From Pyropia yezoensis (Eukaryota > Rhodophyta > Bangiophyceae > Bangiales > Bangiaceae): DNA of 64,000 nt. The DNA is taken from contig CM020620.1 in NCBI GenBank assembly GCA_009829735.1, positions 24,774,020-24,838,019 on the forward strand, read 5' to 3'. The notes beneath the pieces are model-generated. The model did not search any database and was not told the origin of the DNA. It saw only the letters and a list, made by a program, of their open reading frames with translations. The position numbers and the translations under genes were made by a program. Below, piece after piece: positions 15,912-38,500 of this stretch. Position 1 is the first letter of the stretch. Each line of letters opens with the position of its first letter.

Positions 15912-17047
15912 CTACCACGCGGTCGCGACCCACCCCCCCCGGGGGGCCCCGCGGCGGGGGGCGTGCCGCCGCCGCTGCTCCCGCACCCGGTTCAGCGCAA
16001 AGGTGGACAGCAGCCGCGCCGTCAGCCCCGCCGGCAAGGGGCCGGTCGGGTCGCCAACGCGGCGGGGCCGCCCGCCACGGACCCCCTCCCTGCTGCTGCT
16101 GCCACCGGGGCTCCCACCGCCGGCCGGGGCGTCCCAGAGGACCTCCCCCTCTGGGCGGTCTCCCAGCAGCACCCGCACCCCACACGCGGTCGCTTTGGCG
16201 CCGTACCACCCCGCCCACCCCCGGGAATCCTGCCCCCGCAGGCACACCACCACCCACCGTGCGCCCGCCACTGGGCCCAGCACGTGCTGCACCGGCTCCC
16301 AACAGTCGGCGGGCGCGGTGGCCGCACCGGTGGTCGCGTACGCCACCTCCACCCCCCCCGCGTCGTACAGCGCCGCCTCCAAGGTGTACCGCGACGGGCA
16401 GTCGGTGCGGGCGCGAAAGGCGGCCGACACGGCGACGGCCACCCCCGCCGCTGCCGTAGCCGCCGCCGCCGCCGCCGCCGTCGTCGGGCGGACGACCGCG
16501 TCTAGGTCCACCACCTGCGCCATCACGCACGGGAGGTAGGTGCTGACAAAGTTGTGGCGCCCCCCCAGCGGGTAGGGCACCTCTGACGCCTCGGTGGACC
16601 ACCCCGCCGCCGCGGGGACCCACCCCGCCTGCTGCCCAATGATGGGGAGGGGGTGCCACCCGGCGGTGCCCTCCGCGGCCGACGGGTTCACCAACAGGTT
16701 GCGGGAGAGGGCCAAGGAGGGCGCCGCACCCCCCCCCGACGCGCACGCGCCGCAGCCATACAGCTGCTCACAGGCGGGGCCGACGCCGTTGCGGTGGGTG
16801 ACCTGCCCCGGCGGCAGCGGCTGCGCGCACGTCGGTCGCCCCGGGCAGGGGGTGGGGGCGGGAAGCGCATCCGCGCCCCCGCCGGCGGGCAGCGCCGCGT
16901 GGCAGGCGTCGCAGTAGTGGGTGCGGCCAAAGCAGACCCACGCAGACGGGCGGCAGCAGGTGCGGCACTTCCAAAGATGGTGGGGTGCGTGCTCCGGGTC
17001 GGCGCACACGGTGGCACTGCCGGGAGTGGCCGCCCCCCCCTCCGCCG

Positions 17048-17078
<31 letters not shown>

Positions 17079-17615
17079 CGCTGCCGCCGCGCCCCCCCCT
17101 GCTCCCGTCCCCGCCGGTGCGCCAGCCCCTGCCGCCGCCGCCCCCCGCACCACACACGGCGGACACTGGCGCTCCTCTGGCGACAAGGAGTCCCCCGCCC
17201 CGCCCCCACAGGCGGCTTCTCCCCCGTAAAAGGGGTCCCCGCAGACCGAGCAGAGGTAAAAGGCCGCCGCGCGGCGCGCCGCCGCAACGTCCGCGCCCGG
17301 CCCCAGCCGCTCCCGCAGCAGCGCATCCACCGCGGCCCGCACCGCTGCGGGGATGGCGGCCACGTCGCGGAGGTCGGGGTGGTCGGCCCACGTGCCACAC
17401 TTGGCGCACGCGGCACCGGCAAACGCCAGCCGCCGGGAAGGGTCGGGCGCCGCGTGCCGCAACTGCGCCCTCACGCACTCTGTGTGCCACCGGTGGCCAC
17501 ACGCGAGGGTGAGGGTGGGCGCAGCGGCGAGGGGCGACAGGCAGATGGCGCACTCGTCCGATGTGTCGGAAAACGGTGGGTGTGGGGACAGGGGGGGCTC
17601 CTCTGGGTGACTCAT
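15912..17615 (-). CDS. RING-Cys-relay (MYCBP2-type) E3 ubiquitin ligase fused to an F-box-associated (FBA) domain
   Basis: A 567-residue predicted ubiquitin ligase. The RING is C22-C25-C39-H41-H44-C47-C70-C73 (CAIC ... CGHRWHTEC ... CAKC). The tandem-cysteine region follows: FYLCSVCGDPFYGGEAAC, PEERQCPPC, KCRTCC, WVCFGRTHYCDACH and a last cluster ending YGCGAC. Aligned with human MYCBP2 (remembered residues), C136 and C228 match the relay cysteines C4520 and C4572, E148 matches E4534, H239 matches H4583 and F229 matches F4573. F4578 is Tyr and F4586 is Leu. An Ala/Gly insert splits the region at about 158-195. Residues about 305-485 read as an FBA domain: NLLVNP, GRHNFVSTYLPCVMAQVVDL, YTLEAALYDAGG, WEPVQHVLG, GARWVVVCLRGQDS and WAGWYGAKATACGV. 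In Fbs/FBXO2-type proteins this fold binds N-glycans. The tail is basic. No F-box is seen, and none is needed if the relay catalyses directly. The start is the ATG at 17615 (MSHPEEPP); one exon. Confidence 0.88.
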
Positions 17616-19535: not shown

Positions 19536-22397
19536 TCACCGCCGCGGCCGCTTGCGGCCACTGAGTGTGGCCACCCGGCCGGTGCGCGCGCGCGCCTCCG
19601 CCAACAGGGCGGGCGCGCCGGCGGTGGGGCTCTCCACAGCCGCCATCTGGGCCACCGACGCTGGTGGCATGGATGTGGCCGACAGGGCGGGGGACACGGA
19701 CGGAGACGCCACGGGCGACGCAGCTGCTGCGAGTGGCCCGTGAGGATGGCTGCCGCCGCGGGCAGAGGCGGAGGCGACCGGCGGCGGCGGCAGCGCACCA
19801 CGCCACCGGCCAGCAGCTACCGTGGCGCTGGCGGCAGTGGCAGCACCAGCGACCAGCGATGACGACGCGGCGATGGTGCCCCTCGGGGGGTGCGCCAACA
19901 GGCGCATTGGCACCGCCGGCAGGCGCGAAGCCGATTCTGCGGGCAGCCGCTCCGGCAGCGATCCGCGATCACGCCCCCCATTCGGGTCCACCGAGTTGAC
20001 CCGCGTATTGTAGCTGCAGCAGAACCCACACCGGTTGTACAGAAAGTGGTAGGGCACCACCGACGGCTTGCTGCAATCGTTGCACCAGACGTCTGCCCTG
20101 GCTGATCGGTACTCAACGGGCATCTGCTCGCCCGCTAGAAGGTAGTCGAGGCGCTCAAAGTAGGTGCTCATGTCCGCAAGCGACTTGGCACAGATGGGGC
20201 AAGAGTAGGATCGCCTTGCGTACTGCCGATAGCAGCTGACGTGCATCAGGTGGCCACACCGCAGATACTTGACGGGGGAGGTGGATGTGAACAGGAACTG
20301 GTGGCACACGGGGCAGTCCGACTCGAGCGCCCGCTCGACGCACCGATGCTCGCGTGCGTACTTCATGTTCATGCACGCGTTGCACTTCATGCAATGGAAG
20401 AAGTCAATGCCCAGTCCCCGGCCTACGCGGCACACATTGCAGCTGTGGCAGTGGTAGATGGACCGTGACGTGTCGTCATCAAAGTATTTGCAGACAGAGC
20501 AATAGTAGCGGGCCAGGAGGCGGCCGCAGGTGTCCACCGCGCACTTGCCCGCCACGGGCTGAACAGTGCCGCAAAAGGTGCACAGCATCTCTTCCGTCGC
20601 CGACCGGTCCATTGTGTGCCCACATTCAGCGTCATGGCAGAGGCGGCAAGGGTAGATGCGGTCGCAGCACTTGGCGCGGAGCTTGGCGGCGCGCAGGTAG
20701 TGGGTGCAGCCGCGCACGCGCTGGCCGTCGGGAAGGGTACGAAAGACCGGCTCCAGCTCCCGCTGTGTTGGTGCACGCACGTACCCGGGCACTACCTTCC
20801 CAGCAGACGGTACATCCATACCATCTCCAGACACCCCCGACGCCGCATTTTGCCGAACCAGTCCACGGGTGACTGGCCACGCGCCGGTCGAAGGGACCAA
20901 TCTGGTGCCGGCAGAGCCGTCACCCAACGAGCTGCCAGCGCCAGCTGCGGAGTCTGCGTCGCTTGCACCAGACGTTTCCGCCAGCCCCGCTGATGCACCG
21001 CCGCTGGCACCAGGGACGCTGCCGGGGTAGCACCGGTCCGCCGCATCCCGCGCCGCGTCTTTTGAGCGTGCCGCTGCGGCGGTGGTCTGCACCCACGGCG
21101 CAAGCAGCAGCTGGTGAATCATGCGACCACGGGCCTCGACCGGTAAGCTGGCGTCGCGCCCAATCTCTCGGATGGCCGCCTCCATGTTGACCTTGCCTTT
21201 GAGCAACACCAGTGCGGCTGCCGCCGACGCCGTATCCGTGTCGTTGAGGATGGCGGTGGTGGGCCTGGGGCTCGTCGCTGGTGCACCGGGGGAGGCGCCT
21301 GCGCGACCCGCAGAGGAAGAGAAGGGTGGGTGGTGGGTGGGACTGGATTGCGTGGCCACAGCAGTCACTGAGGCGTCATTGGCAGACCGGCCACCCCTCG
21401 CCGAGTTGCCGCCAGCGCTGCCCAAGGGCGCTGCTCCACCGCTGCCACTGCCACTGCCGCCACCACCGCCGCCGCCACCGCCGCCACCGTCGCCTCTGCC
21501 GCCGCCCCCACTCCTGCTACCTATACTCGCGCCGCGTGGCTCCTCTGTCGCCACCCCCCCAGTGCTCACTGGCGACGCAACAAGGTCTTTGGGCATGGGA
21601 AACCAAGACTTGAGCCACGTTTCAAACATAGTCGACCGGGTCACCTGGAAGATGTGCGACATCATCTCGGCCTGCTCCGACGCCGACAGCACGCGCACCA
21701 TCCATGGGAGCATCTCCTGCAGGTGCTCCGCCGGCATCGTGCCAAATATCCGTGCCACAATCTCCGCCGCCTCGTCCTTGGTAAAGTGTGTGACGAGGAG
21801 CGGCCACAGCTGCGCCTCTTCCTCTGCCAGGTGGGACACCATGCTGTCCCGCAGCGCACGGGTCACCTCCCGGATGGACTGGACAAGACGCTCCGACTCG
21901 ACCGCCGACGGCAGGCACTCAAGGCGCACAAAAAGGGCAGAGAGCTTCTCAAAGAGGCCCCGCTCCACAACGTGCTCGTTGCTGTACTTTTCCACCAGCC
22001 CGTGGACACGCTCCTCCAGCTTGGGCAGCACCACATTGTCTTCTGCCTTGGAGTGCTCCTCCACCATGCGGCGGAGAAAGGACACACGCTCGGCTAGGGC
22101 GGTCACCTCCCGCGGGTTGGCCGTCGTCGCCGAGCCTTCCCCACATGGCAGCAGGTCCACCCGCTGGAGCACCAGGTTCAGCTCCATCCGGATGGCCTTG
22201 TGCACGCGGAGCACCTCGCTGACAGGGCCATCGTCGTCGGCCGTCGCGGGCGGCGCCGCCGCCCCGCCACCGCCGGCGCTGCCCGCTACAGGCGCCGTCG
22301 CCGCCGAGTGGCGTGCCCGGCCCGCAACTGGGACCGGATCCGGCAGGGGCGGCAGGGCTGGGACGGCGTCCGCACCCCCCCGGCCGCCCCCATCCAT
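19536..22397 (-). CDS. BRUTUS/HRZ-type hemerythrin-CHY-RING E3 ubiquitin ligase
   Basis: A 953-residue intronless protein. In plants, BTS/HRZ proteins sense iron (or redox state) through hemerythrin domains and ubiquitinate iron-response regulators. One N-terminal hemerythrin/HHE domain is seen (about residues 60-215): EVLRVHKAIRMEL, EEHSKAEDNVVLPKLEERV, NEHVVE and SHLAEEEAQLWPLLVTHF, which hold the expected His/Glu ligands. Low-complexity Ser/Gly linkers follow. The CHY zinc finger (about 553-625) has GCTHYLRAAKLRAKCCDRIY, CHDAECGHTMDR and CTFCG. The CTCHY finger has YYCSVCKYFDDDTSRSIYHC and FHCMKCNACMN. The RING-H2 (about 695-740) is CPVCHQFLF, CGHLMHVSCYRQY, CPICAKS. A zinc ribbon follows (VWCNDCSKPS, CGFCCSYN), then a disordered tail. 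Plant BTS usually has three hemerythrin modules, so this is a reduced form. The start is the ATG at 22397 (MDGGGRGG); a second ATG lies 4 bases downstream, out of frame. Confidence 0.92.
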   Translation of the reverse strand: MDGGGRGGADAVPALPPLPDPVPVAGRARHSAATAPVAGSAGGGGAAAPPATADDDGPVSEVLRVHKAIRMELNLVLQRVDLLPCGEGSATTANPREVTALAERVSFLRRMVEEHSKAEDNVVLPKLEERVHGLVEKYSNEHVVERGLFEKLSALFVRLECLPSAVESERLVQSIREVTRALRDSMVSHLAEEEAQLWPLLVTHFTKDEAAEIVARIFGTMPAEHLQEMLPWMVRVLSASEQAEMMSHIFQVTRSTMFETWLKSWFPMPKDLVASPVSTGGVATEEPRGASIGSRSGGGGRGDGGGGGGGGGGGSGSGSGGAAPLGSAGGNSARGGRSANDASVTAVATQSSPTHHPPFSSSAGRAGASPGAPATSPRPTTAILNDTDTASAAAALVLLKGKVNMEAAIREIGRDASLPVEARGRMIHQLLLAPWVQTTAAAARSKDAARDAADRCYPGSVPGASGGASAGLAETSGASDADSAAGAGSSLGDGSAGTRLVPSTGAWPVTRGLVRQNAASGVSGDGMDVPSAGKVVPGYVRAPTQRELEPVFRTLPDGQRVRGCTHYLRAAKLRAKCCDRIYPCRLCHDAECGHTMDRSATEEMLCTFCGTVQPVAGKCAVDTCGRLLARYYCSVCKYFDDDTSRSIYHCHSCNVCRVGRGLGIDFFHCMKCNACMNMKYAREHRCVERALESDCPVCHQFLFTSTSPVKYLRCGHLMHVSCYRQYARRSYSCPICAKSLADMSTYFERLDYLLAGEQMPVEYRSARADVWCNDCSKPSVVPYHFLYNRCGFCCSYNTRVNSVDPNGGRDRGSLPERLPAESASRLPAVPMRLLAHPPRGTIAASSSLVAGAATAASATVAAGRWRGALPPPPVASASARGGSHPHGPLAAAASPVASPSVSPALSATSMPPASVAQMAAVESPTAGAPALLAEARARTGRVATLSGRKRPRR

Positions 22398-23552: not shown

Positions 23553-26500
23553 ATGCTCACCCCTCGCAACTTTGTGGCGCACGTCACGCGGCTGGTGGAC
23601 CCCGCGACCCCCCCGGAAGAGCGGCTCCTGTTGGTCACTTCCATTCGTGACAACATTGAGGTGGTCTACACCCAAGAGTACAACTCCTTCCTCTCCCACT
23701 TTATCCCCGCCCTCAAGCGGGTGCTCACCGATGTGACCTCCCCCCAGACCGTCGACAATGAGGTACACAAGGCACGCAACGTGGTGCTTGAAGTCCTCAA
23801 CCGGCTCCCCCACATCGACGCCCTCCGGCCGTACGTGTCGGACCTGCTGACGCTGGCGCTGCTCATCCTCCGGACGGATAATGAGGAGAACGCGGTCACC
23901 GCCCTGCGCATCATCTTTGACCTCCACAAGAACTTCCGCCCATACCTCGAGGCGCATGTACAAGAGTTTCTTGTGTTCGTCGCTCAGCTGTACCGCAACT
24001 TTACGCGCACGGTCAACGCGGCGTTTGCACCCCCCGCGACGGGGGGCGTCGGCCCGGGAGGGCCCGGCGGGCCCCCGGGCGCGGCGGGCATGGCTGGCGG
24101 GCAGCCGGCGTTGATTGCATCGACACACTCGTTCAAGGTTGTCATTGAATGTCCGCTCATTGTCATGTTCCTTTTCCAACTCTACCCCAAGTTTATCGGG
24201 GAGAACATCCCCGTTCTACTGCCGCTGATGGTGTCGGCCATCGAGGTGACGGTGCCCCCAACTGCGGTGGCCCCGCCCGCACCGGGCGTCGCGCGCGCTT
24301 CCCGCCACCGCCTGCTGCACGACTTTATCGCCGCTCAGGTCAAAACCGTCTCGTTCCTGTCCTACCTGCTCAAGCAGTTCCACGCTCTGATGAAACCACA
24401 CGAAGCATCCATCCCGCGGTCCGTGGTGCAGCTGCTGCTGGCTTGTCCGGGCGATGCGGTGGCCATCCGCAAGGAGCTCCTCGTGGCGGTGCGGCACATC
24501 CTTGCGACGGACTTTCGGGCGGGCTTTTTTCCGCAGATTGACCTGCTGCTGGACGAAAAGGTGCTCGTCGGCACTGGTCGCGTCGCGTACGACACGCTTC
24601 GGCCTCTGGCCTACTCCTTTCTCGCCGAGCTGGTTCACTATGTGCGCCACGACCTGACGCTCCCTCAGCTGTCGCGGGTCATCTACCTCTTTGGCACCAA
24701 CGTGCACGACCCTTCGCTGAGCTTCTCCATGCAGACTACCTCGGTACGGCTGCTACTCAACCTGATTGAGGGCATTCTCGGGGACGACTCAGAGGTCAAG
24801 GCGCGGCAGCTGCTCATCCGTATCATGGATATCTTGGTGTCTAAGTTCGCAACCATCAAGGCGCAGGTGCCGCGGCTACTCAGCCACGTGGCCACCCTTC
24901 GTGCCCGGGGGGACGTCTATGCGGCGGGCCGTCCTCTCTCTGAGGACCCAGTCGTCGACCCCATGAAAGAGATCAATGAGTGCAAGCACCTGATCAAGAC
25001 TCTGACACTCGGCCTCAAGACCGTCGTGTGGTCGGCCAGCAACATTAAGGTGCAGCCGCCGCCGCCGCCCACGGTGTCCGCGCCGGGTGCTACAGCGCCC
25101 GGCGCCGGGCTACCGGGCGCCCCTCCAGGGACCGCGGGTGCAGCGGCTGGTGGCGCACACGGGGTTCACGGTAGGGGGGCGGGTGGCGCCGATGGTGGTG
25201 GCGCCCCGCCAGCGCCGCCGCCACGAAAGGGACTGACAGAGGACGAGTGCGCCATCCTGACGCGGCTCCTCGAATCGGCCATGGACTGCTTTCGTCTTTA
25301 TGGGCGGGAGGCCAGTCTGGACTTGCCACCCGGGATGGTGGTGGCCCTCGCTGGGCCGCCAGGGGGTGCTGGTGTGGTGGATTCCTCAGCACCCAAGAGG
25401 CGGGCGGAGGCGGCTGCGGCGCCCCCTGCCCAGGTTCCTCCACCGCGGGGTAGTTCGACCGCAGCTTCGGTCGCCCGTCCCGGCTCAGCTGACCCATCAC
25501 AGACAGGGGGGGCTGCGGCCGCGGCTGGTGTTGCCGGCTCTGGGACGGCAGGCCTGGCATCGAGGTCAGGACCCGCTGCCGGCGTCGTTGCCCCCGTGGC
25601 GGCGGCGACGGCGGCGTCAACGAGTCATGCAGGTGGAGGTCGACCTGCCCTGCCAGAGCGGACGGTGGCTGTGGCTGGCGGCGGTGGCGGCGGCAGTACT
25701 GTCTCTCTTCCCCCCCTGGCGTCGGAGAAGGAGATACTGGACCAGTTTGCACAAATCTTCACGGTCCTTGACGCGCGCAACTTCCAAGACGTCTTCGGCC
25801 TGCGCATGCCAGAGCTGTTCGATGAGATTGTGCGCAACTCAGCGGTGCTGGCGATCCCCCAACACTTCCTTGCCAACGTGAACATCTCCAAGTACTTTGC
25901 AGACATCCTTCTGTCGTTTGTTGTATCTCAACTACCACAGCTGGGCTCGGTCGCGTCTACCCACGCCCGCCGCGCGCCCGCACTGCTACGGCTCTTCAAG
26001 ATTTTGTTTGCGTCTGTGACCCTCTTCTCGGACAACGAGCCGGTGCTGCACCCGCATCTGGCGACGATTGTCCGCGGCTGCTTGACTCACGCGGCAGCCC
26101 AGCTGGAACCCGGAAACTACCTCCAACTGCTGCGAGCACTGTTCAAGTCGCTGTCAGTGGGCAAGCACAAGCTCCAATTTGAGCTTCTCTACCGAGACCT
26201 CATGCCTCTCGTCGAGTCCCTGTTCCAATCGTTGTTGAAGCTGCACGAGGGCCCTCACCGGCTGGCTCATCGGGACATCTTTATTGAGCTGTGTCTAATC
26301 GTGCCCGCCCGGCCTTCGACCATCTTTCCCCACCTGAGCGACCAGCTCAAGCCCATCACCCTTGCGCTGTCGTCGGGCAGTGACCTCATTGCGCTGGGCC
26401 TGCGGACGCTCGAATTTTGGGTGGACACCCTCCAGCCCGACTACTTAGACCGGCTGCTTACGGCGGTGGAGCCAGGCCTGACGCGGGCGCTCTTTCGTCA

Positions 26501-29500
26501 CGTTCGGCCGGCTCCCTACCCGTACGGCAGCGCGGCTCTGCGGATATTTGGCAAGCTGGGTTCGAGGATGCGGCGATTCCCTCACTCCTTTGTGGACCTG
26601 TCTGCGTTCCCGCTGCATGCGCACCCGGCGCTGCGGCTACATTTCAAATGGAACTCAGTAATGTCCGCATCGGGGATGCCGGCGCCCGCTGGGGCAGTGG
26701 CGTTGGGCAGCGCCGGCCCGGCGGCCGCGGCCTCAGCGCCAGCAGCATCCGCGTTCGGTGGGTCTTCTCGCCCGGGTAGTCCCATGATCACTGACGGTAG
26801 CCCACCATCGCCCTTCTTTGGCAGCTTCCAGCTGCCTTTGGACGATCTCGTCCAGCTGGCCACCGAGGCTCTTCTTGATGAGCGTCCACCCGGCAACCGC
26901 GCGGCTGACGGGTCGCACAAGAAGCGCGCGTACGAGCTGCTCAAGGCGTGCCTCAGTCCCTTCCTGGACCTGGACGAAGCAACGAGCCTCGTCGAGCGCG
27001 ACGACGCGGCCGTCCCTGTGCTCACGGTGCCCTGCGATGCACCGCCCGCCGCTGCTGTGCCGTGCGCTCCACCAGGAGCCATCGCGGCCGCGTCAGCCAC
27101 AGCAGCGGGTGGCGCCCGCCCGGCCTCGGCAGGCACGAAACGGCCGGAGTCATCGCGGCGGCCAGGCGTCGGACCTGGCCGTCGTCGTCGTACACGGGCT
27201 ATTCACCACTCGGAGGTAGTAACCGTGACGCGGCTACTCGTGGGGCTGCTTGCTGCCCCTGGCGACACGGACCTGCTCCGTGCATTTGACGCCGACCTCC
27301 ACGACGCCAATACGGCCCATGCGGGAGGGCAGCCAGGCTCTAATGGCGGTGGAGGCCGCACAGGCGGCGGAGGTGGCGCGGGCGGTGGAGACGGGGGCGG
27401 CACCGGCGGTGGCGGCGGTGACAACCCTCATGGCTCGTCCTCAGCTGTCCCCCCCGTGGCGTCTATGGGCCCTCGCGCTTTTGCCGACGCCCTTTGCCGC
27501 CACTTTGCGCTTCTGGAGGTCCATCGCCTCGGATCCTGCTCGGTAGGCGTTGGCCCAGATGTGGACCGTGCTTCGCTGCCGTCGGGGTCGGATGTACGAC
27601 CACCAGACCGGCTTGAGCCGGACCTCTTTGTCGCCGCCCTCGTACAGGTGCTCGCTCGTGAGCGACGGGAGCACGCGGCGGCGGGGCTTGATGCGCTCCG
27701 CGCCTATGTCGACGCGCTGGTGGCGTTTGAAGCTGCGCGCCGCTGCAGCGAGGTACAGGCGGAGCGGGCGGCTGCAGCTGCGCAGACAGCCATGCAGGGC
27801 GTTTTCTTGGCGAAGGGCAGCGCTCACGTTAGCTGCGGCTCCGCTTCCACTCCTGGCCTGGCGGCGGGCGTACCAGGTGCCAGCGACGAGCCGTCGTCCA
27901 GGGACAAGGACGGAGATGTGGTTATGGCGGGTGCCCCCTCTAGCGCGGCTATGCCCGCTGTCGTCAGCGCGGCGGCCGTTTCTGCAAAAGGCAAGGGACC
28001 CGCCACTGCGGCAAGCGGCCGCGCCGGTGGTCACGCAGGCCCGGCGGGCGCGCGAGAAACCATGTCGACACCGTCGGGGGTCCGGTCGTCTGCATCGTCG
28101 GCGTCGCCCGCTATGGCCGGTCTTATAGAGCGTCTCTGCCATTGCTGCTACGAGCGGACGTGGTACCAGAAGTGGGCGGGTGCGGCGGGCCTGGGCATTG
28201 TCGCCCGTCGTGCTCCGCCCTCGCTGATGCGGGACCGGACGTCAGCGTGCTACGAGGTCCACGTCGTTTGCGCGCTGCTCTTTGTCGAGCGTGATCTAGC
28301 GCCCGAGTTCGGGATTGTCGCCTCACAGGAAGCTGCCTCATCGCTCGCGACCGTGCTGGAGGTGATGCACGGGAGTGGTCGCCACAGGGGGCGCTTCCAC
28401 CGGTCGGCCGCGACTCAAGAGGGGGTGGGTGGCCCCAACACTGCGGTGCCAGGAGGCGGCAGCGAGTCTACCGGAGGTGCAGGCACACCCGCAACTGTGG
28501 GGGCCAATGCACCTGTGGCGGCAGCGGCAGCGGGCACCCCCTCCCGACCGGCGGGGACGGGTGGGGTAGCCGGCGCTGAGCAGCCTCCACTTGCGGTGCC
28601 GGCAGGCGATCCCTCTTCAGGAGGCGACGGCAGCAGTGGCGCCGGTGGCGGCGGCAACGCACCCTCTCAGCCTACCCCTCCCCTTACGCCCGAAGAAGAG
28701 GCCGAGGCTGAAGACGAGCTGTACACGTTGCGGGAGGTCACCAAGGTCATTGAGGTGGAGCTTTTAATGGATGCGCCGCTCGCGCGGGCGGCTTCCCGGC
28801 GGGCGCTTGAGGTGCTCGCCCGTGTCCTTGGCTGCACCGTTTCCGACGTACTCATGCCCGTCCGAGACTCGCTGCTTAAGCCTCTGTCTCAGAGGCAGCT
28901 GCGGCAGCTGCCGTTTCCTGGCCAGATTGCGTACGTCCACGCAGTCACGTACTGCCTCAGTCTTCGGCCGGTGCTGCTGGGCAAGGAGCTTCTCGTCGGC
29001 GTGCTCCGGGACTTTTTCTTCATCCCGCTCATCGAGGTGGCCAATGACATGACGATGGAGAAGCTGACCGAGGCGGAGGAAGGGATCCGTCACAAGCTTG
29101 TGGAGAACAAGCTCATCCAGGTCAAGACGGTGGACGAGCTGCTGCAGCTCCGCCGACAGGCCGTCGAGTTCCTCTGCGCAATTGTGACGTCGTGCCCGAC
29201 GGAGCTGCAGGCCCCCGAGAACGAGGACGTGTTTCGTAACGTTGTCGCAGCGCTATTCCGCTCCCTTCAGTCTCGCGACAAGGAGCTGGTGGCGGCAGGC
29301 AAGAGAGGCCTTCCGTTGGCCATTCAGGCTCACCCTGCGCCCAAGGAGCTGCTGCAGACGAACCTCCGGCCTGTGCTGGGTAACCTTGTTGACTATAAGA
29401 AGCTGACGATCCCGTACTTGTGCGGCCTGTCGCGCGTCCTCGAGCTCCTGTCTGCTTGGTTCAACGTCAACCTCGGAGACAAGCTGTTAGAGCACCTGGT

Positions 29501-32500
29501 GAAGTGGACCGAGCCCGAAAAGCTGGCAGCCACGAAGAAGTGGGTGCCAGGTACCGAGTCTTCGGTGGCGGCCGCCATTCTAGACCTCTATCACTTGATG
29601 CCGCAGGGGGCGTCCAAGTTCTTCGAGCCGTTCGTGTTGATGGTGCTGCGTCTCGAGGCTGTACTGACGGTTACTGCCCCTGGGACTGCTCATCTAGGTC
29701 TCCGCGGCGCTCACGCGGCGTCCACCTCACCTTACCGTGAGCCTCTCCTGCGGTACAGCAACAAGCACTCGGCGGTGGCGGTGGATTTCTTCCTATCTCA
29801 CCTGCACCGCCCGCCGCTGCGAGGCCTTTTCATGACTCTCCTCCGCGCTGAAGGTGCCGACCCATTGCGTAAGGAGCTAATGAACTCGCCACAGAAGCTT
29901 CTCTCCGCCACCTTTCGGCTGGCCGTCCCCACCGATGCTGGCGGTGCGGTAAGTGGCGTTGTTAGCGCCGCTGCCATCTATGGGGTGCTCATTGTTGACG
30001 CACTGGAGCGAGAATGCCCTGGCTGGCTGGCATCGACACCTGCTGTCTTTTTGTGTCTTTTGGAGGTTTGGCGCTCTCCTGGGCGGCGGGAACGGCTGGC
30101 ACGGGAGCAGTCGCTGCCTTTGGAGCACCTTCAAGAGTCGCGCATCCTGGCCTCTCTGCTGCTCACGTATGTCCGCGCCCACCCTGAAGCAGTGGAGGTC
30201 TTATTTGCGTTACTCTCCATTTTTTCGGTGCGTACGCTCTCAGACTTCACTTTTGTGCGCGACTTCTACACGGATGTCGTTGGCGACCGCTATGCGCCGC
30301 AGTACAAGCGGGCTATCATGGTCTACTTCCTCAAGTTTTTTGCCATGCCAGACGTGTCACAGGAGCACAAGGTTCACGCGCTCCAGCTGTTGGTGACGCC
30401 CATGTTGGAGAAGCACCTCAGCGCGCGCAGTGCGGAGCGGGAGCGCCGGCGTGCTGCTGTGGGGGCAGGCGGGGCCGCTACGGCTGACAAGGAACCGGGT
30501 GCTGCGCGAGCAGACGCAGTGCCAGGCGCCCCCGTGGCGGGAGCACCAACGGCCGGAGGTGTGGCAGCCGCTCCTGCGGTAGCCACAGCCGGGCCAGCCA
30601 CTGCCAGGCCGCAGCCGGCTGGCCCGTCCGCGCCGACTCCGGGAGCTGCGGCGGCGCCGGCGGGAGCTTCGTTGCCTCCGGGTGCGGATGGCTTGCCAGT
30701 CGGCTCCGCTTCCACAGTAGCGGCTGGTGCGGCTGCAACCGTCGCTACACCCGCGACGACAGGGCAGGTCGTCCCTGACATCGCGGCTGCAGCTGCACCG
30801 GCTGTCGCTCCTGCCGGTCATGTGGCACCAGGTGCCGGTTCCGCAACCGCAGCGCCGCCTGCAGCAGGTGGCGTCGCCGGTGCTGCGGCTGGCGCAGTTC
30901 CTTCTGCCGCCCCCGCCCCTGCTGTACCTGGCACGCCCGGCCCACTGCCGGCCGAGGTCGTGACCGTTGGAGAGGGTGGCCCGTCGGCAGTCAAGATGGA
31001 TGCGGACGACGTGCTGGATACCGAGATGATTGATCGCATCATGCGAGAGCTTTTGGACCAGCCCGACGAAGTGCTCCGCGTCCACGACGAACCGTTGAGC
31101 GCGGAGCTGCTGCAGTTGGCAACGCTTCTTCTGAAGTTCATGCCCGTGGAGCTGAGCCGCTACCGCAAGGAGGTGATCAAGTTTGGTTGGAACCACCTCA
31201 AGCGGGAGGACTCGGTGGCCAAGCAGTGGGCGTTTGTCAATGTCTCCCGCTTTATCGAGGCGTACCAGGCGCCCGATAAGATTATCCTTCAAGTGTATGT
31301 GGCGCTGCTGCGGGCGTGTCAACAGGACGGCCGGGCGTTGGTGCGCCAGGCATTGGACATTCTGACGCCCGCACTGCCGAGGCGGCTGGTGCACAACCCT
31401 GTGGACCACAAGTACCCCATCTGGATCCGGTATACCAAGAAGATCCTGCTCGAGGAAGGCCACTCGCTGCCCCACTTGGTCCACATCTGGCAGCTGATTG
31501 TACGCCACTCGTCCTCATTTTACGCCGCCCGCGCGCAGTTTGTGCCGATTATGGTCAACCTGCTGAGCCGGATGAGCGCGAGCTCCTCCGCGTCGCTCCC
31601 CGAATACCGAAGGCTGGCGGTGGACCTCGCTGACCTGGTTATCTCGTGGGACATCCAGCGGATCGCTGCGTCCCGGAAGCGGGCCCGGCCTGTCGACATG
31701 GAGTCGGAGTCTGGAGGGGGCCGCCCGCCGCAACTGGCCCGGGTGGAGGCTGGTGCGGTGGTACCTGGCGGCAGTGGGGGCGCTGGTGCTGGGCCCACCG
31801 CAGTAGGGGCTGCCGGCGCGCCCATTGCAGCTGGCACAGCCGCGGCTGCCGGTGAGCCTGCTGCCGGTGCGGACGCGGCCGCCGTTGGGACTCCGGCCGC
31901 GGCGGCTGCAACGGCTGCGACCGCGGCGGCTGCAGCGGCTGCGGCCGCTGCAGCGCGCGCGGAAAACGCTGAGGAGTTCCGCCCCACCCCCGCCATGACC
32001 GAGATGGTGGTCAATTTCTTAGCGCGCGTGGCGTTTACTAACAATGAGGCGCGGGAGCGGAAGGTTCTCACCCGCCGCTGCCTCGCGCTCATTGACAAGG
32101 CGCTGGGCGTGTGGCCAAACGTGTCGGTGCGGCTCGTGTACCTGGAAAAGATCCTCGACGCCAACGCTCCCGACGCGCGCGGTCCTGGCGGCTCCGCCAC
32201 CCCGTCGGGGGGCAGCGGCGGGGGCGGGGGCGGGGGCGGCCGCGGTCACGCAACGCAAGCCCGGGGGGCTGCTGGGGGGGGGAGCTCCGGCTCGGCCGGC
32301 AGCAGTGCGGCCGACGGGAGTGGCAGCGGCAGCGGGGGCGGCGGCGCGCGCCCCGGCGGTGCTGCCGGTGGATCATCGGCGGCAGCGGCGGCTGCTGGGT
32401 CCTCGCCCATGAACAGCGAACGGGCGGCTGCGCAGGCGGCGGCGCTTGCGACCGCCCTTGAGCTGGCCCTTGTTCTCCTGCGTCGGCAGGGCGCCGCGTT

Positions 32501-35500
32501 TACGCGCGCGAACGCGGCTGCGCTGCGGGCGATGGTGTCGCCGTCGCTGGAGGAGCGGTCGCCCCGGGCAGCGGCGATGTTTGCACAGCTCCTCGCTCGG
32601 CTGCTGGTTGTTTCACCTCCAGAGGACTCGCCGACGGCTGCCGCCGCTGCGGCGGCTGTTGCCAATGCGGGCGGCGGGGGCGACAAAGGGGTTACTCCTG
32701 CGGCGGCTGGCGGCGCGGGCGGAGGCGCCGCCGCTGCCGCCCCGGGTGGACAGGCACCTTCCGCGGATATGGCACTGGTGTACACAACGGTCGACACGGT
32801 ACTCGACCGGTGCCTCCGCACGTCAGACACGGTGCAACAGTACAACGCGCTGGTGGTTTTGCGTGCGGTTGTGAACGTGCGGCCTTCGGCGCTGCGGCGT
32901 TACATTGACCCGCTGGTGCGCGCCCTCCACCGGCTCACGCTGGAGATCATCTCGGTGCACCACGCGGCCAAGGAGTACGGGTCGGGCCGGGGAGGGGGCG
33001 GTATGCCTGGTGGTGGTGGCCCCATCGGGGGGGGCAACGGCGGGGACGTGAGTATGGACGGCAAGCCGCTGATGCTATGCCTGAATCTGTTGGGCAACGA
33101 CCTGAGCGTGTTGAGCTACGAGAGGCGGCGGGCCTTTTTCCAGATCTTTACGAACCTGCTGCTTGAGCGATGCCATCATGTACCGGTGCTTATCGAGGCG
33201 GTGCGGCTGGTCAGCACGTGGGTACTACCCGCAGCCGCGGCGGCGACCGAGTCGCCGGTTGTACCCGCCGGGGCAGAGGCCGCCGGTTCCCCTGCCAGCA
33301 CGGCGGCGGCATCTCCGGCACCCGATGCCCGCAAGGAGGCACCTCCCCCCAAGGAGGTGGTGTCACCTAAAGAGAAGGTCACCCTCATGATGAAGCTCGT
33401 CACGTTGGATCGCGTGGGTGGCTCCGGCTCCCGCCGACTCCAGGCGTCGGTGCTGGACCTGGTGTACCGACTCTTTGCCGGGGAGTCGGGCCGTCAAACC
33501 CGCTTTGAACTGCTGCCAGGCAAGACCGAGCGCCTCTTCTTGGACGGTCTGCGGTCGACTGATGTGCCGACTCGGCGCCGCTTCTTTGCGCTCTTCACCG
33601 CGACCATGCCGTCGCGGCCCCTGGAGCGGCTGCTGTACATCCTGGCCAAGCAGGACTGGGAGCCGCTGTCGGATTCGTTCTGGATTCGCCAGGCGTTGGA
33701 TCTTCTACTGGCTGTCGTGCTGGAGCCGTCGCCACTAGTGGCAGACGCTTCGCTTGCGCGGTTTCCGGCCATCCGGCTGGCAGCGTCGCCGCCGGCTGCA
33801 TCAGCGGTAGAGACTGGGGCGCGCGCTGGCGCTGCTGGTGCGCGCCCGGCGGGGCCACGGCTGGACCCTGTCGAGTTGGGGCGCACGTCGGTGGAGAAAG
33901 AGGAAATGCGTCGCCTTTTCATGCGAACAGTCGCGACCGGCGGGGGCGACGCGAGCCGGCGCGGTCGGCGGGTTCGCCCTCTTGCAAAAGAGCTGTCGCT
34001 GGCCACGTCTGGGTCAGTGGCTTCCTCGTTGCGGGAGCTGACGCACCTAGACTCGTCGCTCGCTCATCGACTGTGGGTACGCCTTTTTCCCCAGTTGTGG
34101 GCGTCAGCGACGGAGCAGGAGCGAACGGCGGTCGAGGCCGCCCTTGGCGAGCTGGTCGTCAAGGAGTACCACCTGGCGCAGGCATCGTGGCGCCGCAACG
34201 TTGTACAAGTGCTGCTCGAGGGCGCGGCCGCCTGCGGACCCGACGGACCGATCCTTCACCCGGCGGTGCTGCTGCATGTGGCTCGGCGTTGGAACGCGTG
34301 GCACGCGGCAGCCCCTATGCTGGAAGCTCGCATCAAGTCGCTGAATGCCGAAGTGGGCGGGCGGGGGCGGGTGGAGCTTGCGAAAGAGCTGGTGAGCACG
34401 CAGGACGCGCTCGCGGCGCTGTACCACGGCCTCGGCGAGTTTGACTGCCTTGCTGCCCAGTGGAAGATGCGAGCGACGAACACCAGGACGGTTGCTGCGC
34501 TGGAGCTGGAGCAGCGCGGTGAGTGGGCAGAAGCCCAGGATGTGTACTGTGATGTGATGGCGCGCGGGCAAGCCATGATTGGACAGTACAGCTTGGGTGG
34601 CGTGGCTGGTGCAGAGTCCCAGGCAGAGATGTGCTTATGGCAGGAGCGGAGCATTGTGTGCGCGAAGCAGCTGAGCAAGTGGGATACTCTTACCGAGTAT
34701 GCACGCACGGTCATGTCCACGGAGCTTCTCCACGACTGCGTGTGGCGCATCCCCGACTGGTCCAGCCTGAAGGAGCTGCTGCACACGCATCCGGTGGAGG
34801 ACTCGCTGCAGCTCAAGATGTACGAGGCGTACAAGAACCTGCAGGAAAATAAGCTGGATGCCGCCGAGCAGGTAATTTTGGTCGGCTTTCAACGTGCGCT
34901 GGAGCGACTGGCGAGCGTGCCTGAGTCGGCGGGCTGGTGCTCCGTGTCACCCTCGCTGACGCACTTCCAGCAACTGGTGGAGCTGCAAGAGTCGGTTAGG
35001 ATTCTTGCAGAGCTCAATGCCATTTCCTCTGGCGCCACCGCGGGCGGCCCGGCGGGCGGCGGCGGCGGCGGCGGCCCGACCTCCCACGGCGCAGGCGGCG
35101 TTGGCGGTGGCGGTGGTGCTGCCAGTGGTGCCGGTGGGGGTGGCGCTGGCCGGGGCGGCGGCGCAATGGGGGCGAGTGGACCTGTGGCGGGTGTTCTCTC
35201 CATGGACGCTCGGGTGGAAAACGTGCGTGTCATCTTGGCAGGCTGGCGGGACCGGCTGCCCAACGACTTTGAAAGTCCCTCTGTGTGGAACGACCTGCTG
35301 ACGTGGCGCAACCACATGCATCAGGTGGTGGTCAACGTGCTGCAGGCTATGAAGGACTCGGCCGCGTCGTCAGGCGGCCGCTCGGACGTCTCTCAGCAAG
35401 CGCTCGTGATTGGTGTCAACGAGACAGCCGCGAACGTGCACCGCTACGCGCGTGCACTGCGCAAGCAGAATCTGCCCGAGGTTGCCATCCACGCCCTTCA

Positions 35501-38500
35501 GCGGCTCTACCCGTTCCAGACGATGGAGCTCAACGAGTACTTTGTCAAGACTAAGGAGACGGCCAAAGCCTTCCTCGCGTCCCCGCGTGAGTACGGAGGC
35601 AACGCGTTTCACGTCGGCCTGTCCCAGCTCAACGGGACAAACATGGACATGTTCAACGACCGGCAAAAGGCGCAGCTGTTCACACTCAAGGGGCGCCTGT
35701 TCGACGCGCTACAGCATCCAGTATCGACAGTCAACATGCAGTACGCGACGGCGCTGGCGCAAAGCGAGGACGTTGGCTCTGCGTGGCTCGCCTGGGCCCA
35801 CCAGTGTGACAAACTCCACGAGGCCGCGGCGATTGCTGGGGCGGGGTCGGCGGCAGCTTCGGCGTCTCCTGCAGCAGCCGCCGGGTTGCCGTCGATGAGT
35901 GGAGCCACAGCCGGCACGCCCGACGCGCCCGTGCCTGCGGGTGGCCCTCGGCCGCCCGGGACCCCTGGGCTGGCGACCGCTGACCCGCGCGTGGCGGCGG
36001 CGGTGGCGGCGTCGTCGGCTGAGAGCTTGGAGCAGGAGCTCCAGTGGCGGGAGGCGGCAGCCAATTGCTACCTCGCGGCCGTCCGTTTTGGCTCCCGCAA
36101 GGCCCGCACTTTTCTGCCTCGCGCGCTGCGCTTGCTTAGTGTGGACGTGATTGTCCGATTGCGCCGCCACCGACCGGCTTCGCCGGTGGTGTGGACTTCC
36201 CCGCCCCCCGCAGGCGCACCTCCTGCTGCTGCGGATGGCAGTCGCAAGCCTTCGTACAGCCCATCCACGGGCATTGGAGTCGAGGGCGTCTTTGCAGTGA
36301 TGGTCCCGCAGCTGCCCATGTGGGTGTGGCTGCCCTGGCTCCAGCAGCTGGTCCCGATGCTGGCGCGGGCCGAGGCCGCCCAAGCGCAGCAGATCCTTTC
36401 CCGGATGGCGCAGACCTACCCGCAGGCGCTCTTCTTCCTCCTCCGCTCATTCCTGGAGGAGCGCTTCTCCATCGATCGGCCGACGCGCAACCTCACGTAC
36501 GACGCGCTCAAGGCAGCGCGCCCCAACACAGTTGCCGTGCTGCCCGCCGAGGCCTCGGCGCAGATGCAGCTGTCCCAGGCGTCCAAGCACATGCAGTCAG
36601 TCCAAGGAGTGGCCTTGCAGGCCAAGAGCCGGCTGACCAACCTGGACAAGGTGTACCACACGGTACGGGCGTCGGCGGCGGCGGCAACGACGGAGCCCAA
36701 CAAGTCAGTGGTGGCAGCGAATGCGCAGGCCGTGCTCGTCGAGCTCCACAAGGCACGGCGGATGTACGAGCGCACGCTGGATGCGTTCAAGGAGGCGCAG
36801 CGCTCGCACGCGGCTGCCGCCGCAGCTGTGGCGGCAGCGTCTGCTGCGCAGGCCCAGCACAGCTTGGACGCGTCCCCGCACCAGAGGCGGTCGGCGGACA
36901 AGGAGCAGGGGCCGGTGCAGCCGGGGCAACCTGGGTCGCAGCAGCAGGGGCGGCCCGGGACGCCGCTGCAGAACCGTGCCAAGCCGCCGTCAGCGTCCCC
37001 ACAGGTACCTCCTGGCGTGGGCGGTGTCGGCGCCGATACCAAGCCCCCCAAGCCGACGCCCCCCCCGTCGCGGGCGGGCGGGCCCCGCACCCGAGACGTC
37101 CTCTCCACGTCTGCACACGAGCACGGGGACACTGTGATGGCCATCCTCGTGCAGGCGTTTCACCCGCTGTACGTGGAGATGGAGCGGGTGGCACAGGACC
37201 TGGCGCAGCGGACCAAGCCGCAGCAAGAGGAGCAGCTGCTCGGCTTGATGAACGCCCTGTTGCATCGGTGCTATCAACTGTCCACCTCCTCTGGCAGCGA
37301 CGTGCAGCAGTCGCTGCGGGCGGCGCTGGAGGAGGTGTCTCGCATGTGCTTCGCAACGCGGCCACCCGACGCAAAGGGTGGCGCCGGTGCTGGCGGCGGT
37401 CCCAGCAGCGGCCGGGCTGGCGCGCCGGCGGCGTCGGCGGGTAAGGTGCAGGCGTCCATCTCAGACCTCAAGGCGGCGTTTGAAGCGGAACTGGCACCCC
37501 AGACCGCGACGGACTTTCCGACCCAGATCGAGCCGTTTATCGCGCGACTGCGCCGATGGAAAAATGTCTTTCAGAGGCGCGTCGACTCGATGCCGGAGGA
37601 GCGCAACCTGGAGCTCCTCTCTCGTCACCTCATGGACCTGCACGAGTCAGAGGTCGACGTTCCCGGCCAGTATCTGATGGCCATTGCGACGGAGCCGTCG
37701 CCCGATCGGCACGTTAAGATTGAGCGCTTTGGCGCGTGCGTCCGCGTCGTGCGGCGGCACTCGGTGGCCTCTCGTGGGCTGACGCTCCACGGCAATGACG
37801 GCAAGCAGTACCGCTTTGTGCTTGAGACGTCGGTCAACGCCGTGTGCCAGCGGCAGGAGGAGCGGTCGGCGCAGCTGTGTCGCCTCTTTAACGCTTCCTT
37901 CTTGTCCGCCCACTCCGAGGCGCGGCGACGGCGGCTCGCCCTCCACGTGCCGGTGCTGGTGCCAACGGGCTACCACACCCGGCTGGTGTCGGACAATGTA
38001 CCGCTGTGCAGCCTCTCTGAGGCGCTCGAACGCCACTGTGAGGCGCAGGGCGGCGCGATGGATGACCCACTGGTGGCGTTCCGGCGGCTGTGCACGGTGC
38101 CCGTCGGCGCCAGCCGGGAAGAGGTCAATGCCGCCCGCCACCAGGCGTTTCTAGAGGTCTGCCGGCAGGTGCCCATCACCTGCTTGTCGACATTTATCGG
38201 TGGCTCCATCGCGAGCCCTGCCGAGCTGTTTGCTTTTAAAAAGCGCTTTGCCGAGACGCTGGGCATTGCGAGCATTGTGAGCTACGCGCTAGTGGTGGGC
38301 GCGCGGCGGCCGCAGAACTTGTCCTTCTCGTGGACGTCCGGCGCGGTCGTGCACGGCCACATGCGGCCGCTGGTGTCGGCGCGCGGGCTGCTCGAGTGCG
38401 ACGAGACGGTGCCCTTCCGCCTCACCCGCAACATGTACGCCTTTCTCGGCCGCACTGGCGTCACTGGGGCGCTCTTTGGGGGGATGGCCGCGACGGTGGC

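Follow-up and report, generated by a model that had tools for sequence, protein, structure and literature searches.

Does a red alga encode a small ubiquitin ligase in which a RING-Cys-relay (RCR) module, as in MYCBP2, is joined to an F-box-associated (FBA) domain as its own substrate reader? An earlier note on DNA of Pyropia yezoensis had claimed such a protein from the letters alone. The DNA analysed here (the window) is a stretch of 64,000 nucleotides, i.e., C3:24774020-24838019 of a 107.5-Mb genome in 11 contigs, and the probable alga that the note assumed as host is a red alga. In the translation of the window, the open reading frame of 567 residues was recovered on the minus strand as described, with ATG at 17615, a TAG stop ending at 15912 and no internal stops. 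The features of the gene are listed in Table 1.

By domain matches in the window, the neighbours of the gene were ordinary nuclear genes, including an ankyrin protein and an alpha/beta hydrolase. Scans of the 64-kb window for tRNA and Rfam families gave no match. Tra1/TRRAP was found as a single frame of 5162 aa at 23553-39041 of the window (+). Another E3-like gene, with hemerythrin, CHY, RING and zinc-ribbon domains, was found at 19536-22397 (-), and we take it to resemble plant BRUTUS/HRZ.

Table 1. Positions in the window of the RCR-FBA gene and of its domains and key residues. MYCBP2 and Fbs1 residues are the aligned places; counts are of family members having the column.
Feature	Position	Strand	Basis or count
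RCR-FBA gene, 567 aa, one open frame	15912..17615	-	ORF analysis of window
RING domain, residues 20-80; C22, C25, C39, H41, H44, C47, C70, C73	17376..17558	-	Pfam RING_11, MYCBP2 match
Tandem-cysteine (TC) zinc domain, residues 118-292	16740..17264	-	MYCBP2 RCR alignment
C136, upstream relay cysteine (MYCBP2 C4520)	17208..17210	-	Cys in 128/128
E148, triad acid (MYCBP2 E4534)	17172..17174	-	E 38, D 59, neither 31 of 128
Ala/Gly-rich insert in TC domain, residues 156-203	17007..17150	-	translation
C228, downstream relay cysteine (MYCBP2 C4572)	16932..16934	-	Cys in 127/127
F229 (MYCBP2 F4573)	16929..16931	-	F 3, Y 118 of 127
H239, triad histidine (MYCBP2 H4583)	16899..16901	-	His in 127/127
FBA domain, residues 303-482	16170..16709	-	Pfam FBA, FBXO2 match, genome search
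Y360, at Fbs1 Phe177 (sugar pocket)	16536..16538	-	alignment
G466-W467, at Fbs1 Tyr279-Trp280 (sugar pocket); Gly replaces Tyr	16215..16220	-	alignment

RING, tandem-cysteine and FBA modules

In the Pfam search, RING_11 (E 6.7e-7, residues 21-48) and FBA (E 8.8e-12, residues 303-482) were found above their curated cut-offs, and no F-box was among the matches up to E 10. In the sequence search of PDB, the top match was the RCR of MYCBP2 (6t7f, E 2e-13), aligned in two stretches, i.e., residues 13-155 and 207-292. After a second MYCBP2 entry, the next was FBXO2 (1umi, E 1.4e-9, residues 304-480). The break in the MYCBP2 match coincides with the Ala/Gly-rich insert, which holds a run of 12 Ala at 17055-17090 and is shortened or missing in the aligned relatives P0002 and P0005. 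The C-terminus is a basic tail without a hydrophobic segment.

Against MYCBP2, the RCR half scored 56.0 bits. Of 500 full shuffles, 308 gave any match, with a top score of 7.0 bits; of 500 in which Cys and His kept their places, 413 did, with a top score of 18.7 bits. A profile of 124 family members, window protein included, matched the MYCBP2 RCR structure in one contiguous stretch with E 5.3e-36 and FBXO2 with E 1.5e-25; the best RING-only PDB chain gave E 4.4e-6. A chance likeness of cysteine-rich proteins was ruled out by the Cys/His-fixed shuffles and by this gap between MYCBP2 and the RING-only chain. The profile searches thus excluded the lack of a significant FBA or TC match, and the RING and TC module of RCR type, the FBA domain and the missing F-box all came out as the earlier note had described them. 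As an observation made by sequence comparison, the RCR-FBA protein at 15912-17615 is confirmed.

The Pfam FBA profile matched the 107.5-Mb genome once, at the window gene. When P0005, a distant relative, was searched in the genome, its three match pieces all lay within the same gene. One RCR-FBA locus was found, and a second FBA or RCR gene was rejected on these matches. The F-box-like model PF12937, the one F-box model applied to the genome, gave at least 18 matches, none of them at the window gene.

Family members among Porphyra-like red algae and diatoms

With the window protein (P0001) as query, 4 matches were obtained among 8000 candidates scored. P0005, a distant match of P0001 without long tracts of low complexity, had 158 matches among 4535 candidates, 120 of which were listed. 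An alignment of the Bangiales proteins as query gave 26 matches among 8000 scored, five of them new (P0125-P0129), including P0128 from Cylindrotheca closterium. Here, Bangiales is a label for the window protein and P0002-P0004, of which only P0003 carries an organism name. All of these searches depend on shared words and on a length within 0.55-1.75 times that of the query, so they do not show an absence of the fusion from other groups. Full-length relatives had about 425-750 aa.

The closest relatives were P0002 (metagenome), P0003 (Porphyra umbilicalis) and P0004 (transcript); identity to P0002 was 88% for P0003 and 69% for P0004. The fusion was thus present in another red alga, i.e., Porphyra. 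Among the 120 listed of the 158 matches of P0005, all 11 with an organism name were diatoms, and F-box was absent from the precomputed domains of all 120. The diatom genera were Cyclotella, Thalassiosira, Skeletonema, Stephanocyclus, Fragilaria, Seminavis, Cylindrotheca and Epithemia. The Seminavis protein has the database name 'protein ligase MYCBP2', and P0005 is named 'F-box associated region/RING-like zinc finger' by JGI.

The earlier note knew of no described protein of this architecture. This held in part: a shallow literature search, with the primary RCR papers outside its reach, found no description of an RCR-FBA fusion, but databases already hold the fusion and its relatives occur in diatoms. 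On the present matches, RCR-FBA is an unnamed family of Porphyra-like red algae and diatoms rather than an isolated protein; judged by similarity, its modules are homologous to known ones, and the family has no description in the literature searched. Enzymes of the RCR type probably occur outside animals as well.

A quick, unrooted IQ-TREE built from 41 of the 129 family proteins placed the four Bangiales proteins together (SH-aLRT 100). These four with P0108, P0118, P0125 and P0126 were split from the other 33 rows (100), within which all named diatoms of the tree fell. In a FastTree of 128 rows, the same eight proteins were split from all rows bearing the hydrophobic tail described below. 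Inheritance from a red plastid ancestor and lateral transfer would both fit this distribution. By tblastn, no viral or prokaryotic relatives were found among the pattern-matching stretches, i.e., 21 stretches in viral_contigs and 120 in genome_contigs.

Some members differ in single features. In P0125 (711 aa, metagenome), a second FBA-like copy was seen by eye after the first, where Pfam reports one stretch. The same protein ends with CAIM, presumably a CaaX-like prenylation motif. P0060 (Thalassiosira profunda) has an FKBP prolyl isomerase domain after RING and FBA, as a real fusion or a merged gene model. The public model of P0003 (BU14_0166s0036) is without the second TC part, which bears the second relay cysteine; because P0002, 88% identical, has this part, a mis-called intron is suspected and is perhaps the cause of the gap. 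The metagenomic P0127 departs from the frame in the Ala run (window 17055-17090), by a repeat-length error or as an allele.

In 43 of the 129 members, the last 45 residues contain an uncharged, strongly hydrophobic segment with a length of 15 residues or more; in 1 of 129, such a segment lies elsewhere in the chain. Shuffled tails gave a mean of 0.8 and a maximum of 4 in 200 rounds. A loose rule had given 52 of 129 with false matches, and a strict rule, by which only the best window was charge-tested, had given 18. The final rule behind the count of 43 was set after missed tails were seen, and it still misses P0036, the tail of which is similar by eye. The tail was not found in P0001-P0004, P0108, P0118, P0125 and P0126. 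In the 128-row tree, one branch separates these eight from all 43 tailed members, which lie on the diatom side. The tail is present, among the named diatoms, in P0077 (Cylindrotheca) and P0092 (Epithemia) and absent from P0030, P0039, P0049, P0056 and P0066. The segment looks like a tail anchor, and if this is true, RCR-FBA would sit on a membrane in these members, facing the cytosol.

Relay residues, proposed mechanism and rival readings

The residues of the window protein were compared with MYCBP2 over an alignment of 129 proteins, and rows without a column were left out of its count, i.e., P0004 at C136, and P0003 and P0127 at C228 and H239. MYCBP2 residues were numbered by counting along chain 5o6c, and the numbers which we take to be those of its relay site (C4572, E4534, H4583 and F4573) agree with this count. 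As the earlier note had placed them, C136, C228, E148, H239 and F229 aligned with their MYCBP2 equivalents, and the window protein has the whole Cys-His-Glu triad (C228, H239, E148). The loop behind C136 varies in length and letters; C136 itself is invariant. P0127 is identical to the window protein over the first 182 residues and is therefore not independent, so that C136 counts as 127/127 without it. The acid is E or D in 97 of 128 members, and the F229 column also holds His in 4 and Ser in 2 of 127. The relatives were picked by similarity, which inflates all of these counts.

In this alignment, most of the TC cysteines presumed to bind zinc vary about as little as the relay pair, so the case for a relay rests on the equivalence with MYCBP2. 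Sixteen other Cys/His places of the TC domain are common to MYCBP2 and the family and nearly invariant. By arithmetic, these 16 would suffice for four tetrahedral zinc sites and leave C136, C228 and H239 over. C263 is a further invariant cysteine, without a MYCBP2 partner in the alignment.

Both homologous modules were observed on one chain, with invariant relay residues, at one locus of the genome and with presence in diatoms. The gene likely encodes a compact, probably cytosolic RCR E3 ligase with a substrate reader on the same chain. In the mechanism that we infer, the RING would bind E2~ubiquitin, and ubiquitin would move to C136 and next to C228. C228 with H239 and E148 would pass it to a hydroxyl, of Ser/Thr or another kind, and the FBA domain would hold the client during transfer. 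In MYCBP2, according to the accessible part of PMC9527308, a Cys-His-Glu triad esterifies Thr, with a preference for Thr. MYCBP2-dependent ubiquitylation of a cysteine is also reported (PMC12664034, accessible part), so that even in MYCBP2 the acceptor need not be a hydroxyl. The chemistry may also differ from that of MYCBP2, because 31 of 128 members have neither E nor D at the place of the acid, and 118 of 127 have Tyr at that of F4573.

What the FBA domain would hold was considered from the sugar pocket of Fbs1, where contacts of Phe177, Tyr279 and Trp280 with GlcNAc-GlcNAc are essential, as given in the accessible text of PMC4603797. This trio (F177, Y279, W280) is not complete in the window protein, which has Tyr, Gly and Trp, and it reads YCW, YGW and FCW in P0002-P0004. 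N-glycan reading, which the earlier note had suggested by analogy with SCF-Fbs ligases, is therefore not supported for the window protein in particular, with Gly466 at the Tyr279 place. From these residues, glycan reading by the window protein would be the less probable case; for the diatom members either reading would fit.

There is close to an even chance that the FBA domain of the relay ligase binds protein and not glycan, as reported for FBXO44/FBG3, so that clients need not be glycoproteins, a reading that is compatible with the relay mechanism. It is favoured by the loss of the essential Tyr279, replaced by Gly in the window protein and by Gly or Cys in P0002-P0004, and by FBXO44/FBG3, which in the available part of PMC4603797 has Tyr, Tyr and Trp at the pocket yet binds no sugar. 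On the other side, the W280 and T215 places are kept in the window protein, and all three pocket places are F, W or Y in 102 of 124 members. Because FBG3 has YYW without sugar binding, the pocket residues alone decide neither way. A conserved Cys at the Fbs1 A217 place had been considered as a sign against sugar binding and was dropped: A217C alone has no effect and T215P lowers binding (PMC4603797, same part), and the window protein keeps Thr (T404) at the T215 place.

A one-chain, glycan-directed oxyester ubiquitin ligase is a doubtful but possible form of the relay reading. On the cytosolic side, the FBA domain would dock on a misfolded glycoprotein through its N-glycan or the GlcNAc stump left of it, and a sequon Ser/Thr close by, or a sugar hydroxyl, would be esterified by the relay site. 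Such a ligase would be soluble in Porphyra-like algae and C-terminally membrane-anchored in many diatoms. One STT3 match, split over two adjacent pieces, and two GH85 (ENGASE-type) matches in the genome make it likely that the host has N-glycans and a GlcNAc-leaving enzyme.

It is unlikely that the protein is a plain RING ligase, in which TC would be a structural zinc scaffold, E2 would transfer ubiquitin directly to lysine and FBA would choose the client. In favour of this reading are a recognisable RING (Pfam RING_11), a family in which 31 of 128 members lack the triad acid, presumed zinc cysteines conserved as strictly as the relay pair, and a relay chemistry that is predicted from sequence. 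However, the relay cysteines and His are invariant where present, and C136, C228 and H239 align with catalytic residues of MYCBP2 (PMC9527308, PMC12664034, both in their accessible parts). In the latter source, C4520 is named as a catalytic residue and C4520S is inactive. The place after the last RING ligand (74) also speaks against a plain RING, with a basic residue in just 6 of 119 members (Gly 86, Lys 5, Arg 1, others 27). In canonical RINGs, a basic residue there favours direct transfer. As support for the relay itself this observation was dropped, since MYCBP2 has Lys at this place, and it stands as a further difference between MYCBP2 and the family.

It is very improbable that an assembly or gene-model artefact fuses two genes: the high GC with long chance frames on the opposite strand, the P. 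umbilicalis model without the second TC part and P0127, identical for 182 residues and then out of frame within the Ala run, would fit it, but the window frame is free of stops, order and frame are the same in P0002, P0005 and seven proteins of the mmetsp/eukprot transcript sets (P0011, P0014, P0018, P0023, P0035, P0037 and P0070), and because each of these seven ORFs spans the RING ligands, the relay residues and those of FBA, the split into two genes that the earlier note had considered is unlikely. The transcript ORF of P0004 likewise spans the second TC part into FBA.

Taken as a whole, the earlier reading was partly supported, i.e., for RCR, the five residues, FBA, the absent F-box and the algal host, and was not supported for glycan reading by the window protein.

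Comparison with known systems

If the relay reading holds, a compact single-chain family in red algae and diatoms would make the relay mechanism older or wider than animals. Its members would serve as small proteins for structures and assays, and their natural variation would probe the active site, i.e., Phe or Tyr beside the esterifying cysteine, and Glu, Asp or neither as the acid. The FBA fusion suggests a mode of client choice. Non-lysine ubiquitylation, on which nothing was found for red algae or diatoms in the literature searched, would become testable in these organisms.

The window protein resembles MYCBP2/PAM/Highwire/RPM-1 (PHR) proteins in the RING and TC domains, both relay cysteines, and the triad His and acid. 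It differs in having 567 aa where PHR proteins are giant, in the FBA domain on the same chain and, as a family, in Tyr at the F4573 place in 118 of 127 members. Since RING_11 and FBA are its sole domains above the Pfam cut-offs, the RCC1-like and PHR domains of those giant proteins are not seen in it. With SCF-Fbs1/2 (FBXO2, FBXO6) and FBXO44 it shares the FBA domain, at E 1.4e-9 to FBXO2. In contrast to these, RCR-FBA has no F-box, and therefore no sign of Skp1-Cul1 recruitment, and its FBA domain is joined to RCR. The sugar pocket of SCF-Fbs1/2 is altered in the window protein and P0002-P0004.

The earlier note had seen a functional logic in MYCBP2 working with an F-box protein. The likeness stands in so far as both are an RCR ligase with a client receptor. 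However, FBXO45, the partner of MYCBP2, is a separate protein for which the accessible text of PMC12664034 gives F-box and SPRY domains and no FBA, so the analogy is loose. As an analogy drawn from accessible parts of the sources, SCF-FBS2 with ARIH1 is a closer parallel to RCR-FBA than MYCBP2-FBXO45. Mammalian SCF-FBS2 and ARIH1 attach ubiquitin through oxyester bonds, both to GlcNAc and to the Ser/Thr of N-glycosylation sequons (PMC13270118, accessible part). An FBA-type reader and a cysteine-using, oxyester-making ligase are common to both, the function of RCR-FBA being the predicted one. There, several proteins and an RBR ligase do what one chain with an RCR ligase would do here.
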